A DNA stretch of 64,000 bases, taken from the NCBI GenBank assembly GCA_005239635.1, contig SBBQ01000020.1, positions 1 through 64,000 of the forward strand, read 5' to 3'. The position numbers were made by a program, and so were the translations under genes. Source of the DNA: Uliginosibacterium gangwonense (GTDB taxonomy: Bacteria > Pseudomonadota > Gammaproteobacteria > Burkholderiales > Rhodocyclaceae). The notes under the pieces are model-generated. The model was not told where the DNA came from and made no database searches. It saw nothing but the letters and a program-made list of their open reading frames with translations. This document shows positions 6,733 to 59,241 of the stretch, piece after piece (the first letter of the stretch is position 1; every line of letters begins with the position of its first letter).

Positions 6733-7536
6733 TTAGGGTTTGGGCCCGGCGGGTTTAGGTGGCGCACCCGCTGAACTTACAGGAGTAGTTGAAGTGGCAG
6801 GTGCGCCAGCGGGTGCGGGAATGCCCGACGGCTTAGGCGGTGCGCTGGACGAGGCCGCCGCCGGTGCAGGTCCGCCTGCCGGACGCGGTGTGTCTGCTGC
6901 AGTTGCCCCAGAAGGCCCACCGGCTGGTTTAGGTACGGGGGCTGGGCCGCCCGCAGGCGCAGATGGCGGCGGTGCTGAAGATGAAGTTGCGGCGGTAGGT
7001 GCAGAAGTTGAAGCCGGTATGGACGCATGCGGTTTTGCCGTGGGGGCAGGTACATCAGCTGGTACATTGTTTACGTTAGATGTGCCTGTTTGGCGTTGTT
7101 TGCCAATAAACCAAAAAGCCACGCCGCCAAGCACCAACAACGCCAATACAATCTTGCCCCAGGGCAAACCAGATGAGGTTGTAGCAGCTGCGTTTGGTGT
7201 CGATACTGAATTCGATACAGAGGTCGGCACCGAGGGCGACGTTGAGCCGTTAGACGTTGTACTCGGCGCCGCGGCGCTTGAATCAACCGTAAAGCTCAGC
7301 TGCCCTTTCAGCTCCTGCAAAGTTTTATCGCCAATCCCTTTAACGCGACCTAAATCTTCCAGTGATTTAAACGGGCCGTTGGCAGTGCGATCTTCCACAA
7401 TTGCATGTGCCTTGCCCGGGCCAATGCCAGGCAACTGCTCAATTTCAGACTGGGCAGCGGTATTGATATTCACCTTGGCCCACACCAATGTAGTGCTCAG
7501 CAGAAACAATAAGATGCTACGCATAATCAGTTTCAT
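6733..7536 (-). CDS. ComEA-like helix-hairpin-helix protein with a membrane segment and Ala/Pro-rich tail
   Basis: 267 residues. A signal peptide (MKLIMRSILLFLLSTTLVWA) is followed at once by a ComEA-type helix-hairpin-helix DNA-binding domain (VNINTAAQSEIEQLPGIGPG through VKGIGDKTLQELKGQL, about 22-85). A Ser/Thr-rich linker, a hydrophobic segment (GKIVLALLVLGGVAFWFIG) and a tail of about 115 residues of Ala, Pro, Gly and Ser follow. ComEA pulls DNA into the periplasm during natural transformation. Usual ComEA proteins end with the hairpin domain, so the membrane segment and tail after it are odd. The start at 7536 gives a clean signal peptide. A TTGCCAAT-type repeat lies 11 bases upstream of it. 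Confidence 0.8.
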   Translation of the reverse strand: MKLIMRSILLFLLSTTLVWAKVNINTAAQSEIEQLPGIGPGKAHAIVEDRTANGPFKSLEDLGRVKGIGDKTLQELKGQLSFTVDSSAAAPSTTSNGSTSPSVPTSVSNSVSTPNAAATTSSGLPWGKIVLALLVLGGVAFWFIGKQRQTGTSNVNNVPADVPAPTAKPHASIPASTSAPTAATSSSAPPPSAPAGGPAPVPKPAGGPSGATAADTPRPAGGPAPAAASSSAPPKPSGIPAPAGAPATSTTPVSSAGAPPKPAGPKP

Positions 7537-7604
7537 GGTGGCTCCGATTGGCAATCGTGATATCGAAAAACAAACAAGACACCTCGTCGGCGCCCCAGCA
7601 GCAA

Positions 7605-8597
7605 TTATTTATTTAACAGTCGCGCTACGTAGTCAGACACGCCCTGTCCTACATCTGCAAAAGGCTGGTCATACCCAATCTGACGCAACTGGGTGATGTC
7701 TGCTTGGGTATAGCTTTGGTACTTACCCTTGAGCGCATCGGGAAACGGAATGTATTCCAGAATGCCTTGTGCAATCATTTGATCTAACGTAAGCGCACTT
7801 TCACCCCAAGCTGAACGGCACGCGTTAACAGTTGCCACGGCAACATCATTAAAAGGCTGCGCCTTGCCTGTGCCAAGATTGAAAATGCCAGACTTGTCTG
7901 GGTTGTCCAAGAACCACAGATTGACCTTCACCACATCATCGACATAAACAAAATCGCGTGTGTGGCCACCATTACTGTAGCCATCGTATTCACCAAACAA
8001 TTTCACTTTGCCTTCAGCTTGAAACTGATTGAAGTGATGAAAGGCGACAGAGGCCATACGGCCTTTGTGCTGCTCTTTTGGACCGTAGACATTGAAGTAG
8101 CGGAATCCCGCAATCTGCGCAGTGCGATTGGCAAAACGCTGGCGCACAATTTGATCAAACAAAAATTTTGAATAGCCATACACGTTCAACGGCGCTTCAA
8201 ATTCACGCGACTCACGAAACACAGTACTACCGCCATACACCGCTGCTGAAGAGGCGTAGAGCAAGGGTATGCCTTCTTGCTGACAGTAATCGAGCAGCGT
8301 CATGGAATAACGATAGTTATTTTCCATCATGTACTGGCCGTTGTGCTCCATGGTGTCGGAACACGCACCTTGGTGCAGCACGGCATCGACTAGGCCATCA
8401 AAATCACCCGCCACAAGACGATCAATAAATTCGTGCTTGTCTAGGTAATCAGTGATTTCACAATCTACTAGATTGCGAAACTTGTCACCCTTGGTGAGAT
8501 TATCGACCGCAATGATGTCGCGTTCACCGCGTGCATTAAGTGCACGCACGAGATTAGAGCCAATAAAGCCCGCTGCACCCGTCACAATAATCGTCAT
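7605..8597 (-). CDS. hldD: ADP-L-glycero-D-manno-heptose 6-epimerase
   Basis: 330 residues of the extended SDR family. It epimerises the heptose nucleotide used for the LPS inner core. The Rossmann motif [11 protein letters not shown] is at the N-terminus and the catalytic YGYSK follows mid-protein. The HldD features [20 protein letters not shown] and [12 protein letters not shown] are present. The ATG at 8597 fits the family N-terminus [11 protein letters not shown]. It lies downstream of hldA in one LPS-core operon. Confidence 0.95.
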
Positions 8598-53600: not shown

Positions 53601-53738
53601 ATGTGGTTTGCACTGTATTACGTGATTGCAATCATCACTTTATTGCTGCACTTTACCGGCCATTTGGCACGATATCGCTTGGAATGGCTTATTTATGTAT
53701 TGGCCATTACCGTCTTCCCGGCCGTGCTATACCTATAA
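53601..53738 (+). CDS. Small two-helix membrane protein (45 residues)
   Basis: MWFALYYVIAIITLLLHFTG then HLARYRLEWLIYVLAITVFP then AVLYL. Two hydrophobic helices are joined by a short basic/acidic turn. It lies 60 bases after nadC and 152 bases before the hydrogenase small subunit. No strong ribosome-binding site precedes it. I do not recognise the family. It could be a membrane partner of the hydrogenase or simply a small protein cotranscribed with nadC. Confidence 0.45.
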   Translation: MWFALYYVIAIITLLLHFTGHLARYRLEWLIYVLAITVFPAVLYL

Positions 53739-53890: not shown

Positions 53891-54832
53891 ATGTCCACCT
53901 TGGTCTGGATGCAAACCGGCGCTTGTAGCGGTGACACCATGTCACTGCTCACCGCGGACGGCCCCTCGCTTGAAAATCTTACCGGTTCAGGCGATATCGA
54001 GGTGCTCTGGCACCCCTCTCTCACCGACGGCACAACCGGTTACTTTGGTCGCCTCGTCGAGAACATTGAGAACGGCTCACAGCAACTCGACATTCTGTGC
54101 GTTGAAGGCAGCCTAATTACTGGCCCTTACGGCACGGGCATGTTTGACAGCTATCGACATCGGCCCAAAATCGACATTGTTCGATCGCTTGCCGAACGCG
54201 CACGTTATGTCATCGCAGTGGGAACCTGCTCTGCGTTTGGCGGCATTCCTGCCGCACCACCCAACCCCACAGACTGCACCGGCCTGCAATACGACCGCGA
54301 AACAGCCGGTGGTTTGCTTGGTGATGAATGGCGCTCTAGCAGTGGCTTGCCGGTCATTAACTTGGCCGGTTGCCCTACGCACCCGCTCACCATTACGCGC
54401 ACCTTAGCCATCGTGGCTCGCGGCCTACCGCTCGACCTCGATTTTTTAAATCGCCCCAAAGCGTTTTATGGGTCGATGGTGCACCAAGGCTGTACACGCA
54501 ACGAATACCACGAGTACGACATTGAAGATAATCAACTCGGCGGTCGTGGGTGCATGTACTTCAACTTAGGTTGCCAAGGCCCCAACACCTTGGCGAACTG
54601 CAATAGCGAACTGTGGAATAACCGCAGTAGTAAAACACGTGCGGGTGTGCCCTGTTTCGGCTGTACCTCACCCAACTTCCCCAAAGATGGCGACCTCTTC
54701 AAAACAGAGAAACTGGGTGCAATTCCAGTCAGCCTGCCACTCGGTGTTTCACGCTCACACTACATGGCCTACAAAAATTTGGCTAAGGCCGCAGCGCCGC
54801 AGCGCGTAAAAGACCGCGAAATGGAACCTTAA
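53891..54832 (+). CDS. [NiFe] hydrogenase small subunit, group 2-like, with Asp in the proximal cluster site
   Basis: 313 residues. There is no Tat signal, so it is cytosolic. Cluster ligands seen: proximal C12, C113, C161 with Asp15 where the classic fourth ligand is Cys (motif TGACSGDTM); distal H198, C201, C221 or C228; medial C237, C255, C258. VEGSLITGPYGTG and RSSKTRAGVPCFGCTSPNFP are closest, from memory, to cyanobacterial-type HupS (group 2a) rather than to the HoxB/HupU sensors. It electrically links the NiFe site to the next carrier. The large subunit lies 133 bases downstream. Confidence 0.9.
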   Translation: MSTLVWMQTGACSGDTMSLLTADGPSLENLTGSGDIEVLWHPSLTDGTTGYFGRLVENIENGSQQLDILCVEGSLITGPYGTGMFDSYRHRPKIDIVRSLAERARYVIAVGTCSAFGGIPAAPPNPTDCTGLQYDRETAGGLLGDEWRSSSGLPVINLAGCPTHPLTITRTLAIVARGLPLDLDFLNRPKAFYGSMVHQGCTRNEYHEYDIEDNQLGGRGCMYFNLGCQGPNTLANCNSELWNNRSSKTRAGVPCFGCTSPNFPKDGDLFKTEKLGAIPVSLPLGVSRSHYMAYKNLAKAAAPQRVKDREMEP

Positions 54833-54965
54833 CGCAGGATAGGGCGAGCAACTAAAGCTCGCTCGTTGCGCCACAGCACGATTGGGCAGCATGTATTTCG
54901 GCAACGAAATTGCGTCAACAGCTTTACGCCAACGAAATTACGCCAACTAAAACAGGCACACGCAC

Positions 54966-56501
54966 ATGGCTAACGTCACACTAGACATAGACCTCAATCG
55001 AGTTGAGGGCGACCTTGAGTTTCAAGTTGAGCTCGATGGCAATAAAGTTGTAGATGCACGCTGCATCGGCACCATGTTCCGCGGCTTTGAGCAACTGTTA
55101 ATTGATCGCGCGCCCACAGATTCACTGGTCATCACGCCCCGTATTTGCGGCATTTGTGGCACGGCGCATTTATATACCGCCACACTTGCACTCGAACGCA
55201 TGGCGCAGCTCCCTGTTCCGGCGCACGCCACCCTCATTCGCAATTTGTGCCTGATGGCAGAAAATGTGCAAAGCGACTTGCGCCAGCATTTTTTATTTTT
55301 TGCCCCCGATCTGCTGAACGCTCGCTACGCCTCGCATCCCATGTTTGACGAGCTGACGCTTGCATATCGTCCGCTACAAGGCGAAGAAGTTCGCAGCGCC
55401 ATGCAGGCCTCGCGCAAGCTACTCGAAATCGTCGCCATTTTCGGCGGACAATGGCCACACTCTTCGTACATGACGCCCGGCGGTGTTACTCGCGGTGCAA
55501 ACTCGCGTGACATCGTCGATTGCCAAGACATTGTCGACAACACCATTCGCTGGTACGAGCAAGTGGTCATCGGCGACACACTCGACAACTGGTTGTCGTT
55601 AGCTGATGCCGCCTCTTTTGATGCATGGCTTGATGATGCAAAACACGCCAAGAGTGCGATTGGAAAATTGACGCAGTTCTGCCGCGACCAAAGTATTCAC
55701 TTGAGTGGCGGGGGCGCAAACTACTTTATGAGCGCAGGCGCGCACTACGATATTCGCACTTGGCAACCGCCCTATGGCCCACAGTACACATTGTTGCCAG
55801 CCGGGGTTTATAACGGCAACAGTGGCATCAATGAAGCGTTTGATCCCGCACTCATCAACGAACACGTTCGCCATTCTTGGTATCGACCCTACGATGGCGG
55901 CCTACATCCGTATCAGGGCGAAACCGTACCCGACTACGACACCAACGGTGATCGCTACACATGGGCCAAAGCACCCCGCTATGGCAACAAGGTAATCGAA
56001 ACCGGCCCGCTCGCTGAATTATTAGCCGGTGAAGATGCGCTGACTCGCGCGCTACTTGCACGCGATGGCGCCAACACGTTGCTGCGCCAACTTGCACGCT
56101 TACGTCGAGCAGGCGTACTGCTATCTTTAATGAAAAAGACTTTGCAGGATTTAGCGGTTGAGATGAGTTCGCCACATTATCAAGCACCGCCAGCAGGCAG
56201 CCTCGACAACGGTGAAGGCTTTGGCTTTGTGCAAGCAGCGCGTGGCACGCTCGGTCACTGGGTGCAGGTACAAGACGGCAAAATTTCTCGTTATCAGGTA
56301 ATCACGCCCACTGCGTGGAACGCCTCTCCCAAAGACACGCAAGGCGTTCATGGGCATTGGGAAGAAAGCGTGATTGGGTTAGAGCTTGCTGATCTCAACA
56401 ATCCAATTGAGATTGGTCACGTTATTCGCTCACATGATCCGTGCCTTGTTTGTACCGTGCATTTTGCAGGGCGCTCACAACGGCTGCGCATTGGTGCATA
56501 A
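54966..56501 (+). CDS. [NiFe] hydrogenase large subunit with short C-terminal extension
   Basis: 511 residues. The nickel ligands lie in RICGICGTAHLYTATLALER (C61, C64) and in HDPCLVCTVHFAGRSQRLRI (C493, C496). After the conserved His499 come 12 more residues (FAGRSQRLRIGA), so there is a tail for a maturation protease to remove. Canonical regulatory large subunits (HoxC/HupV) end at this His. The protease gene starts one base after the stop. It carries the H2-splitting site. Confidence 0.93.
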   Translation: MANVTLDIDLNRVEGDLEFQVELDGNKVVDARCIGTMFRGFEQLLIDRAPTDSLVITPRICGICGTAHLYTATLALERMAQLPVPAHATLIRNLCLMAENVQSDLRQHFLFFAPDLLNARYASHPMFDELTLAYRPLQGEEVRSAMQASRKLLEIVAIFGGQWPHSSYMTPGGVTRGANSRDIVDCQDIVDNTIRWYEQVVIGDTLDNWLSLADAASFDAWLDDAKHAKSAIGKLTQFCRDQSIHLSGGGANYFMSAGAHYDIRTWQPPYGPQYTLLPAGVYNGNSGINEAFDPALINEHVRHSWYRPYDGGLHPYQGETVPDYDTNGDRYTWAKAPRYGNKVIETGPLAELLAGEDALTRALLARDGANTLLRQLARLRRAGVLLSLMKKTLQDLAVEMSSPHYQAPPAGSLDNGEGFGFVQAARGTLGHWVQVQDGKISRYQVITPTAWNASPKDTQGVHGHWEESVIGLELADLNNPIEIGHVIRSHDPCLVCTVHFAGRSQRLRIGA

Positions 56502-56502
56502 C

Positions 56503-56955
56503 ATGGCCATGGCACGCACCCACATTATTTGCTTTGGCAATGAGTTGCATGGCGATGACGGTATCGGCCCCGCGATTCATGCCGAGCTACTCAAACGTCA
56601 ACTACCACCCGAGGTGCGTATATTTCGGGCGGACGTTTCGGGCTTGGCTGCCGTGCATTGCTTTGAACAATGCGACCAAGCCATTGTGGTGGATGCTGTG
56701 CAGGGTTTTGGCCAGGCCGGTTCAATTCATATATTACAAGCAGAAGACATCGCAGAAGAGTCGACACTCAGCATACATGGGCATGGCGTCGGTAACTTAC
56801 TTGCTTTGTTACCGCATTTAATTGATCACCCACCACGCGTAAAGATCATCGGCATTGAACTGAGTGAAACACGTGCTTTTGCCAATCGACTTTCGCCACC
56901 CGTCGCCCGTGCAATTGCACCGGCAACAGAACGGGTTCTGGAGGCAGCACGATGA
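56503..56955 (+). CDS. Hydrogenase maturation protease
   Basis: 150 residues of the HycI/HupD/HupW family. ICFGNELHGDDGIGPAIHAE holds the N-terminal nickel-sensing Glu/Asp site, VVDAVQGFGQAG the second acidic ligand, and SIHGHGVGNLLALLP the His ligand. It cleaves the large-subunit tail after nickel insertion. The ATG at 56503 follows the large-subunit stop by one base, and the stop overlaps the kinase ATG (ATGA). No other hyp maturation genes lie in the window. Confidence 0.9.
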   Translation: MAMARTHIICFGNELHGDDGIGPAIHAELLKRQLPPEVRIFRADVSGLAAVHCFEQCDQAIVVDAVQGFGQAGSIHILQAEDIAEESTLSIHGHGVGNLLALLPHLIDHPPRVKIIGIELSETRAFANRLSPPVARAIAPATERVLEAAR

Positions 56956-59087
56956 ATGGACCAGATCCGGTGGATGTTGAACCCGGCTTGCCCATTACCC
57001 ATGTAAAGCGCGTTCAGAAATTTGCTGACCGCTGGTGCGGCCGTGCGCGCTTGCCGGGCGAACAGACAGACCGCCACCTACTTATTTTAAAACGTGGCGA
57101 TGGCTACGTTGCCATTCCGGCCGCATGCCCACATGAAGGTTATCGACTCGACCAATGTTCTGAGAACGAGCGCAATGAGATTGTGTGCCCAGCGCATGGC
57201 TTAGCTGTTCCGACCGCAGGTCACCACGCCGTTGCCGTCATTGAAAACGGCGAGCGTTTCTTTCTGGATACCCAAACAGAACCCACGACAGAAAACGACA
57301 CACAAACCACGACCGTCAAATCAGACGAATTGCTACGTTTGCGTGACGAAGTGGAATCGCTCAAGCAAGCCAACCAAGCCCTTGAGCAACAAATCTTGAG
57401 TGTGACCGAACAGATGGAAATCATGCTCGAACAGAGCACACAGCAGTCGCGCACACTGTCATCTCAAAATACAGAACAGAAACGCCTGTCATCCTTTATT
57501 AATCGCGTATCCGACACCATGGACAGCCTGTTACTGGTGCTCGACCGACTCGGCAATATTTTGCAGGTCAATAAAAGTGTGCAAGATGTTTTGGGGTTTA
57601 GCGCGCAGGAACTGATTGGCAAATCGCCAGATACTTTGCTCGACATGGATGAGCTTCAGGCCATGCATAGCCATGCATTGTCGAGCTATCCGACGGGGCA
57701 ACGTTTGTTCCGCGCCATTCTGGCCTCGCGCCACCTCAATGGCGAAGTCCACCTCAAAACCAAGTTGCCCCACCCTGCTCCGCCGTGTTTTTTAATGCAC
57801 GGCTCTCCACTGTATGACATTACGGGCAAACTGGAAGGCGTGGTGATTGTTGCCTCCGATGTGACCATTTTGCGTAGGCGTGAAACTGCATTACGTGAAA
57901 GTGAAACGCGATTCCGTGACTATTCCAGTGTGGCTTCAGATTGGTTTTGGGAAATGGACACACGATTCCAATTTGAGGCCAACACAGGTGATCTACAAAA
58001 ACATTTGCCTTACCTCGATTCCGTCGTTGGCAAGCGGCGTGAAGAAGTAGCGTGGGAAGAAGACACCATCGACATTGAGCGTTGGCAATATTACTTTGAT
58101 GCGATTGCTGAACGGCGCGAGTTTCGTGATTTTGAATACCGCATTTTGGGGCAGGATGGTGAAGTGCACTGGGTCAGCGCCAGCGGCAAGCCACGATACG
58201 ACGAACAGGGGAACTTTACGGGTTACCGTGGCGTAACCAAAGACATTACGCAAAAGCGCCTGATTGAATATGAATTACTGCAACACCGAAACAACCTTGC
58301 CGTATTGGTTCAAGAACAAACACACGACTTGTTAATTGCCAAACAAGAAGCCGAAGCCGCCAACCAAATGAAGAGCGAGTTCTTGGCTAATATTTCGCAC
58401 GAGCTACGCACACCACTGCACGGCATTTTAGCGTTTGCCGCGCTCGGTCTTAAGAAAATTGAATCTGCCCCTCGTGAAAAACTCGCAGATCACTTCGACC
58501 GCATTCAACAAAGCGGCAAACGCCTGTCCGCGCTCATTGATGATCTATTGGATTTGGCAAAACTCGAAGCAGGCCGCATGGACATGCAGTTTGAATGCGC
58601 CAACATTTTGAGTGTTGAACAAACTTTACGTAACAGCCTAGAGGGACTGTTGCTCACGAAGCAACTCACTGTGCAAATTCATTCAAGCAGCGATGCTCCG
58701 CTGGCTAAACTTGATCAAAAAAGGTTTATGCAAGTTTTGCAAAACGTCTATTCGAATGCGATTAAGTTTTCACCACCACACAGTGTGCTTGAAGTGCGTA
58801 TCATGCCTTCAACACTGCCAGGTGAGCATGGCAAAGTTCCTGCATGGAAAATTAGCGTACACGATCAAGGCCCAGGCATCCCGGAAGATGAACTTGAAGC
58901 AATTTTTGATAAGTTTGTGCAGAGTACAAAAACCAAAACAGGTGCAGGTGGTACGGGCTTAGGCCTCGCCATTTCACGCGAAATTATGAAGGCGCATTTT
59001 GGCACCATACAGGCACGCAACCATCCGGATGGTGGTGCTGTTGTGGATATTCACTTGCCGCAATTTACTTACGATTCTGCAAGCTAG
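56952..59087 (+). CDS. Rieske-PAS-PAS histidine kinase, coupled to the hydrogenase operon
   Basis: 711 residues. Residues about 15-105 form a Rieske [2Fe-2S] domain with C59-P-H61 and C79-P-A-H82 (AACPHEGYRLDQCSENERNE then IVCPAHGLAVP). A coiled coil (about 125-182), PAS 1 (185-305), PAS 2 (315-435), a second helix, HisKA with His483 (FLANISHELRTPLHGILAFA) and HATPase_c with N602 region NVYSNAIKFS, DQGPGIP and GTGLGLAISR follow. No receiver, HAMP or membrane segment, so it is a soluble kinase with an unlinked response regulator. Its ATG overlaps the protease stop. I infer that electrons from H2 reach the Rieske cluster and set kinase activity. Confidence 0.92.
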   Translation: MNGPDPVDVEPGLPITHVKRVQKFADRWCGRARLPGEQTDRHLLILKRGDGYVAIPAACPHEGYRLDQCSENERNEIVCPAHGLAVPTAGHHAVAVIENGERFFLDTQTEPTTENDTQTTTVKSDELLRLRDEVESLKQANQALEQQILSVTEQMEIMLEQSTQQSRTLSSQNTEQKRLSSFINRVSDTMDSLLLVLDRLGNILQVNKSVQDVLGFSAQELIGKSPDTLLDMDELQAMHSHALSSYPTGQRLFRAILASRHLNGEVHLKTKLPHPAPPCFLMHGSPLYDITGKLEGVVIVASDVTILRRRETALRESETRFRDYSSVASDWFWEMDTRFQFEANTGDLQKHLPYLDSVVGKRREEVAWEEDTIDIERWQYYFDAIAERREFRDFEYRILGQDGEVHWVSASGKPRYDEQGNFTGYRGVTKDITQKRLIEYELLQHRNNLAVLVQEQTHDLLIAKQEAEAANQMKSEFLANISHELRTPLHGILAFAALGLKKIESAPREKLADHFDRIQQSGKRLSALIDDLLDLAKLEAGRMDMQFECANILSVEQTLRNSLEGLLLTKQLTVQIHSSSDAPLAKLDQKRFMQVLQNVYSNAIKFSPPHSVLEVRIMPSTLPGEHGKVPAWKISVHDQGPGIPEDELEAIFDKFVQSTKTKTGAGGTGLGLAISREIMKAHFGTIQARNHPDGGAVVDIHLPQFTYDSAS

Positions 59088-59207: not shown

Positions 59208-59241
59208 AAAAAAACCGGATTTATTCATCCGGTTTTTTTGT
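59208..59241. terminator. Bidirectional terminator between the kinase and thrC
   Basis: AAAAACCGGAT-TTATTC-ATCCGGTTTTT with A- and T-runs. It closes both the hydrogenase operon and thrC. Confidence 0.92.

Follow-up and report, generated by a model that had tools for sequence, protein, structure and literature searches.

A hydrogenase operon that closes with a Rieske-domain sensor kinase

The stretch of Uliginosibacterium gangwonense DNA analyzed here (64,000 nucleotides of contig SBBQ01000020.1, referred to below as the window) carries a four-gene operon at positions 53891-59087. Read directly from the open reading frames (ORFs) and their spacing, it encodes, in order and on the forward strand, the small and large subunits of a [NiFe]-hydrogenase, a maturation protease, and a sensor kinase. 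The small-subunit gene (53891..54832; 313 amino acids [aa]) was identified by Pfam Oxidored_q6 and NiFe_hyd_SSU_C matches and by its ligand columns over 42 group 2c loci, and an N-terminal signal sequence is not apparent in its product. After an intergenic gap of 133 bp comes the large-subunit gene (54966..56501; 511 aa), assigned by Pfam NiFeSe_Hases and alignment to the same group. The protease gene (56503..56955; 150 aa), which encodes a HycI-type hydrogenase maturation protease by PF01750 and TIGR00072, starts 1 base past the large-subunit stop, and the start of the kinase gene (56952..59087; 711 aa) shares 4 bases (ATGA) with the protease stop. These ORF coordinates agree with a previous sequence-only reading of the locus, which had described four genes with the last three lying 1 base apart or overlapping.

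Based on its ORF, Pfam matches, and alignment, the kinase is predicted to have a Rieske-coil-PAS-PAS-HisKA-HATPase architecture without a receiver domain. The Rieske-type [2Fe-2S] domain spans residues ~10 to 108 (56979..57275). It brings the kinase a score of 26.3 bits against the Pfam Rieske model (cutoff, 20.3 bits), and AlphaFold models it with a predicted local distance difference test (pLDDT) value of ~90. The four cluster ligands named in the sequence-only reading were recovered by translation and alignment: C59 and H61 lie in C59-P-H61 (TGC CCA CAT; 57126..57134), and C79 and H82 lie in C79-P-A-H82 (TGC CCA GCG CAT; 57186..57197). When the domain was used in a sequence-profile search of the PDB, the matches were oxygenase ferredoxins, with T4moC found at an E value of 5e-4, and the fold matches were Rieske-type ferredoxins. 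The best profile and fold matches, namely, T4moC, CarAc, and the naphthalene dioxygenase ferredoxin, have the same C-x-H/C-x-x-H ligands as the window domain, although these proteins are free electron carriers of oxygenases rather than domains of a sensor. Taken together, the ligands, the Pfam score, and the predicted fold support the identification of the N-terminal domain as a bona fide Rieske-type domain.

The Rieske domain is followed by a continuous helix at residues 122 to 189 (57315..57518), presumed from AlphaFold and the alignments to be a coiled coil. In the AlphaFold model this helix runs unbroken from the linker to PAS1, and its motif, LxxExxALRxANxxLExQ, is retained even by kinases that lack a Rieske domain. 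The remaining domains are PAS1 (57504..57878; Pfam and fold search), PAS2 (57909..58256; Pfam PAS_3), HisKA (58368..58574; Pfam), and HATPase_c (58713..59063; Pfam), in the order that had been proposed from the letters. The phospho-acceptor H483 of the H box (58398-58400) and the ATP-binding motifs are invariant across 13 aligned kinases.

Group 2c membership of the hydrogenase

By motif, profile, and tree position, the window hydrogenase is assigned to [NiFe] group 2c and is neither HoxBC/HupUV (group 2b) nor Huc (group 2a). SHDPCLVCTVH, the L2 motif of its large subunit, agrees with the group 2c pattern SFDxCLVCTVH or SHDxCLVCTVH (PMC4853749). A profile built from eight relatives gave a bimodal distribution in which group 2c enzymes scored at least 670 bits and every other hydrogenase scored less than 480 bits, with nothing between. 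In a tree of the concatenated small and large subunits, 42 group 2c loci stood apart from groups 2a and 2b; outside group 2c, this tree held the Huc enzyme of the same genome, other group 2a enzymes, the HupUV-like enzyme of the same genome, and Cupriavidus HoxBC, and it included no named 2c, 2d, or 2e reference.

HydDB describes group 2c as putatively diguanylate cyclase linked and of undetermined role, with a possible function in H2 sensing and regulation via cyclic di-GMP (PMC5037454). The window system shares with this group the L2 motif, the tree position, and an operon that includes a PAS-containing signaling protein, and its relatives carry GGDEF or GGDEF-EAL proteins or kinases at the same operon position. 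In contrast with the published description, the partner in the window is a histidine kinase with an N-terminal Rieske domain, which we did not find described (PMC5037454, PMC4853749). The hydrogenase thus belongs to a known, uncharacterized, and putatively sensory class.

The sequence-only reading had compared the operon with the group 2b hydrogenases HoxBC/HupUV and their kinases HoxJ/HupT (Cupriavidus, Rhodobacter). This comparison overlooked group 2c, whose signaling partners had already been predicted. The window system does resemble group 2b in its linked, soluble PAS histidine kinase and in the His at its distal cluster. However, its hydrogenase does not group with HoxBC in the tree, HoxJ is without a Rieske domain, and group 2b has a linked HoxA-type regulator. 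Furthermore, the window large subunit has a 12-residue C-terminal extension past H499, whereas HoxC and the HupV-like protein of the same genome end at CTVH; the extension accounts for the presence of a protease in the operon.

Group 2a Huc, which is found in mycobacteria and others, offers a second point of comparison, since a Rieske-type protein, HucE, is tied to this group 2 hydrogenase as well. HucE, however, is a separate NifU-Rieske protein without signaling domains, whereas the window Rieske domain is fused to a kinase and has no NifU domain. The closest solved structures for both window subunits are those of Huc, although the relation is not close.

All four Cys ligands of the Ni are present in the large subunit, two in L1 (RICGIC; C61 and C64) and two in L2 (C493 and C496). 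By homology, the small subunit is predicted to bind a proximal cluster through C12/C113/C161 and D15, a medial cluster through C237/C255/C258, and a distal cluster through H198/C201/C221/C228. Of the 42 group 2c loci, 39 have Asp and 3 have Glu at the fourth proximal position, which is occupied by Cys in group 2b and by Asn in group 2a; the fourth distal position, H198 in the window, is Gln in group 2a. With Asp or Glu at residue 15 (53933-53935 in the window), an unusual proximal cluster is predicted for group 2c.

Both of the comparison systems have counterparts elsewhere in the same genome. Contig C68 (loci L061 and L062) carries a group 1 uptake hydrogenase and, near it, a HoxBC/HupUV-like hydrogenase, a HoxJ-like PAS kinase, and a HoxA/NtrC-type regulator; the group 2c operon would thus give this organism a second system for sensing H2. 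Contig C78 (L060; C78:1-15000) carries a group 2a Huc operon with a separate NifU-Rieske HucE (7192-8127). We considered HucE as the source of the Rieske domain in the kinase but did not favor it, since the Rieske domain of this genome's HucE scored 21.7 bits against a profile of the kinase Rieske domains, compared with up to 29.7 bits for stand-alone small Rieske proteins, and since the PDB matches were oxygenase ferredoxins; a domain of this length is too short to yield a reliable tree of its origin.

Distribution and history of the Rieske fusion

The 42 group 2c loci comprise the window, 40 loci from other sampled genomes, and one Ideonella plasmid. The sensor gene was readable in 40 of these (L204 ends at a contig edge, and the sensor N terminus of L216 was not resolved). 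In all 40, the sensor gene closes the hydrogenase operon and a coil-like segment is found at or near the sensor N terminus, as judged from sequence, with a structure model for the window only. The outputs that follow are histidine kinases, hybrid kinases with receivers and with or without Hpt, GGDEF proteins, and GGDEF-EAL proteins.

Eleven of the 40 sensors have an intact Rieske domain ahead of the coil. Nine of them are kinases (the window, L012, L054, L196, L197, L200, L201, L202, and L203), and two are GGDEF-EAL proteins (L057, from another family, and L129, from outside the window's class and on a long branch in the tree). Eight further genomes, all with the same family code, therefore share the order of the four genes and a Rieske kinase with all of its ligands, and the Rieske-coil-PAS arrangement is found on GGDEF-EAL proteins in two more. 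This recurrence in ten other genomes and on two output types, which answers a search suggested in the sequence-only reading, indicates that the window arrangement is not due to chance. The fusion is real, recurrent, and, as that reading had supposed, undescribed in the searchable open-access literature, and it is a variant of the group 2c sensory hydrogenases.

The group 2c tree divides into clade A, with 23 loci that include all Rieske bearers, and clade B, with 19 loci, none of which has a Rieske domain. The hydrogenase tree requires six changes of Rieske state, for which the simplest reading would be one gain in the clade A ancestor, four losses, and one degeneration. The approximately unbiased (AU) test rejected monophyly of all Rieske bearers (p 2e-6) and of all Rieske-bearing kinases (p 2e-11). 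On that simplest reading, the losses include clean deletions of the Rieske domain from otherwise conserved kinases. Since Rieske-coil-PAS1 aligns between the kinases and the GGDEF-EAL proteins, it looks like one input module placed on different outputs. A six-frame scan beside the Rieske-less operons found no separate Rieske gene, a scan of genome contigs with the whole kinase as the query returned generic PAS kinases only, and a scan of plasmids with the Rieske-coil segment gave no match.

A few loci showed features of their own. In L056 (5539-8697) and L199 (genomes G252 and G1401), HycI, the maturation protease, is joined in frame with the coil and sensor kinase, in the order HycI-coil-HisKA-HATPase-receiver-receiver-Hpt in L056. 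The L203 kinase has an in-frame stop between PAS and HisKA, and the large subunit of the Rieske-less operon L217 has an apparent N-terminal frameshift; these two operons are possibly decaying or misassembled. In the window, a bidirectional terminator-like hairpin, AAAAAAACCGGAT-TTATTC-ATCCGGTTTTTTT (59208..59239), was recognized by eye between the kinase gene and a convergent threonine synthase gene; it is absent from the terminator-scan output, and both promoter and terminator scans gave results at or near chance level. A small ORF (53601-53738) between nadC and the operon encodes a 45-aa membrane-like peptide (MWFALYYVIAIITLLLHFTGHLARYRLEWLIYVLAITVFPAVLYL).

The Rieske domain as a candidate redox input

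We propose that the operon encodes a cytosolic group 2c H2 sensor whose Rieske domain serves as a hydrogenase-reduced input to the kinase, and we place the probability of this explanation as a whole at roughly 0.5. The hydrogenase, matured by the protease of its own operon, would oxidize H2 and would form a complex with the kinase via the N-terminal coil of the latter. The Rieske-type ferredoxin domain, fused ahead of the coil in this lineage, would be reduced by electrons from the distal cluster of the small subunit, and its redox state would modulate the signal on its way through the long helix and PAS1 to the histidine kinase. From there, the signal would go to a response regulator that is not linked to the operon. 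The inferred elements of this scheme are the complex itself, what the coil does in it, the passage of electrons onto the Rieske cluster, the direction in which kinase activity changes, and the target. The coil is the likeliest candidate for a universal coupling element of group 2c sensors because no other N-terminal feature is shared by every readable partner, and the Rieske domain would be a redox input added in one lineage. Reduction by the hydrogenase is favored because the domain is found in hydrogenase operons and is similar to small electron-carrier proteins. Rieske ferredoxins of the T4moC type have potentials near -150 mV and are reducible by H2.

That the operon is a putative H2 sensor, as the sequence-only reading had it, is in keeping with the possible H2-sensing function given for group 2c in HydDB (PMC5037454) and with the sensor gene found in every readable locus. 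The same reading had gone on to suggest a possible wired sensor, in which H2 oxidation could reduce the cluster and set phosphorylation. In a fuller form, the electrons of H2 would travel from the distal cluster of the hydrogenase to the built-in Rieske cluster, whose redox state would set the kinase or cyclic di-GMP output. We regard this wiring as tentative, a proposition somewhat short of even odds. For HoxBC-HoxJ, the H2 sensor that has been studied best, the current model requires that H2 be oxidized continuously and that electrons be transferred (PMC10073562), and a dedicated acceptor would make sense on that basis.

Several observations weigh against a hydrogenase-reduced Rieske input. 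The Rieske domain is absent from 26 of the 40 sensors, including L198 and L217, which have the same operon and otherwise the same kinase (~60 to 85% identity to L196 and L197, by region, over the coil, PAS, HisKA, and HATPase), and it occurs in none of the 18 typed clade B loci. In 3 further kinases it is degenerate: L205 (CPH...CEVP), L206 (CAF...CGAQ), and L207 (CQF...CDSQ) are missing one or both of the His ligands, although the Rieske domain is still recognizable (29 to 41 bits). The fold match of the window domain is modest (E value at least 0.019, template modeling [TM] score ~0.5), and the Rieske-coil linker, residues 110 to 121, which bears on the electron path, is poorly predicted (pLDDT <50). 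No cognate response regulator was found near the operon or conserved in the flanks, which differ between genomes, and the genome search recommended in the sequence-only reading returned 57 receiver-domain matches, too many to assign a partner. Finally, the literature searched contained no demonstration of H2 dependence in group 2c signaling. The Rieske-less relatives imply that signaling is also possible without an acceptor or via another acceptor. The notion that the Rieske cluster is a necessary electron acceptor consequently fails for the group 2c family at large, judging by the domain content of its sensors; the cluster is probably a genuine input, though one that such sensors can do without. 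Overall, the first interpretation is partly supported.

Since relatives without the Rieske domain or its ligands keep the coil, PAS, kinase, and hydrogenase, the sensor may instead have two inputs, with H2 signaled conformationally via the coil and the Rieske domain acting as an independent redox or O2 gauge that gates the signal without electrons from the hydrogenase. Rieske-type ferredoxins usually receive electrons from reductases, which would fit such a gauge, as would the sensitivity of HoxJ signaling to high O2 that is reported in PMC10073562. On the other hand, a Rieske domain of this kind ahead of a sensor was found only within hydrogenase operons, which favors a role tied to the hydrogenase, albeit in searches mostly seeded from such operons, and a large-subunit loop containing W266 and P269 tends to go with the Rieske domain, which weakly favors contact with the hydrogenase. 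We consider two separate inputs a rather unlikely explanation, albeit the most serious of the alternatives.

The loop itself (residues 260 to 276; 55743-55793) keeps W266/P269 in all Rieske-bearing systems and is altered in most Rieske-less clade A systems. Loss of W266/P269 accompanied loss of the Rieske domain in 3 to 4 of 4 independent pairs, with none showing the opposite, but the loop was chosen post hoc and the sign test is not significant (p at best 0.125). We therefore set it aside as a docking mark and retain it as a lead only.

The recognizable but ligand-poor Rieske domains of L205 to L207 could also mean that the fold is mainly a structural or docking module between the hydrogenase and the sensor and that the redox chemistry of its cluster is incidental. 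However, the ligand-lost domains have changed more rapidly than the remainder of the kinase. Identity over the Rieske core (residues 55 to 88) was 37% for the ligand-lost pair L205/L206, compared with 58% for both the coil and PAS1. In contrast, the core was more conserved than its surroundings in ligand-intact pairs (window/L012, 65% versus 47% for both the coil and PAS1; L200/L201, 91% versus 79% for the coil and 75% for PAS1). Ligand loss thus goes along with relaxed constraint, which speaks against a maintained docking surface and makes a mainly structural or docking role improbable. A core that is more conserved with ligands and less conserved without them is the pattern expected under selection on the cluster where it is present, and we conclude from these comparisons that the cluster probably has a function in the sensors that carry it, whereas the sensor architecture does not depend on it.

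Lastly, the hydrogenase could serve chiefly in H2 uptake, with the Rieske domain as the exit for its electrons and the kinase as a secondary readout; Huc is an uptake enzyme with a Rieske protein, HucE, that is needed for H2 oxidation (PMC6883350). However, the only conserved fourth gene at these loci encodes a signaling protein, the operon includes no electron-transfer, quinone-linked, or NAD-linked gene, the flanks vary, and for uptake the genome encodes other hydrogenases, one of group 1 and one of the Huc type. We judge an uptake function very improbable in comparison with a hydrogenase-reduced sensory input.

How a regulatory hydrogenase informs its kinase is unsettled, and the accessible part of PMC10073562 names no acceptor for HoxJ. 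The fusion places a candidate acceptor with a distinctive electron paramagnetic resonance (EPR) signature covalently within the sensor. Since intact, ligand-dead, and deleted versions of the Rieske domain occur naturally on nearly the same kinase, electron transfer can be tested directly against conformational signaling. These findings also broaden the view of group 2c, from a diguanylate cyclase-linked hydrogenase to a modular input for kinases, hybrid kinases, and cyclic di-GMP enzymes.

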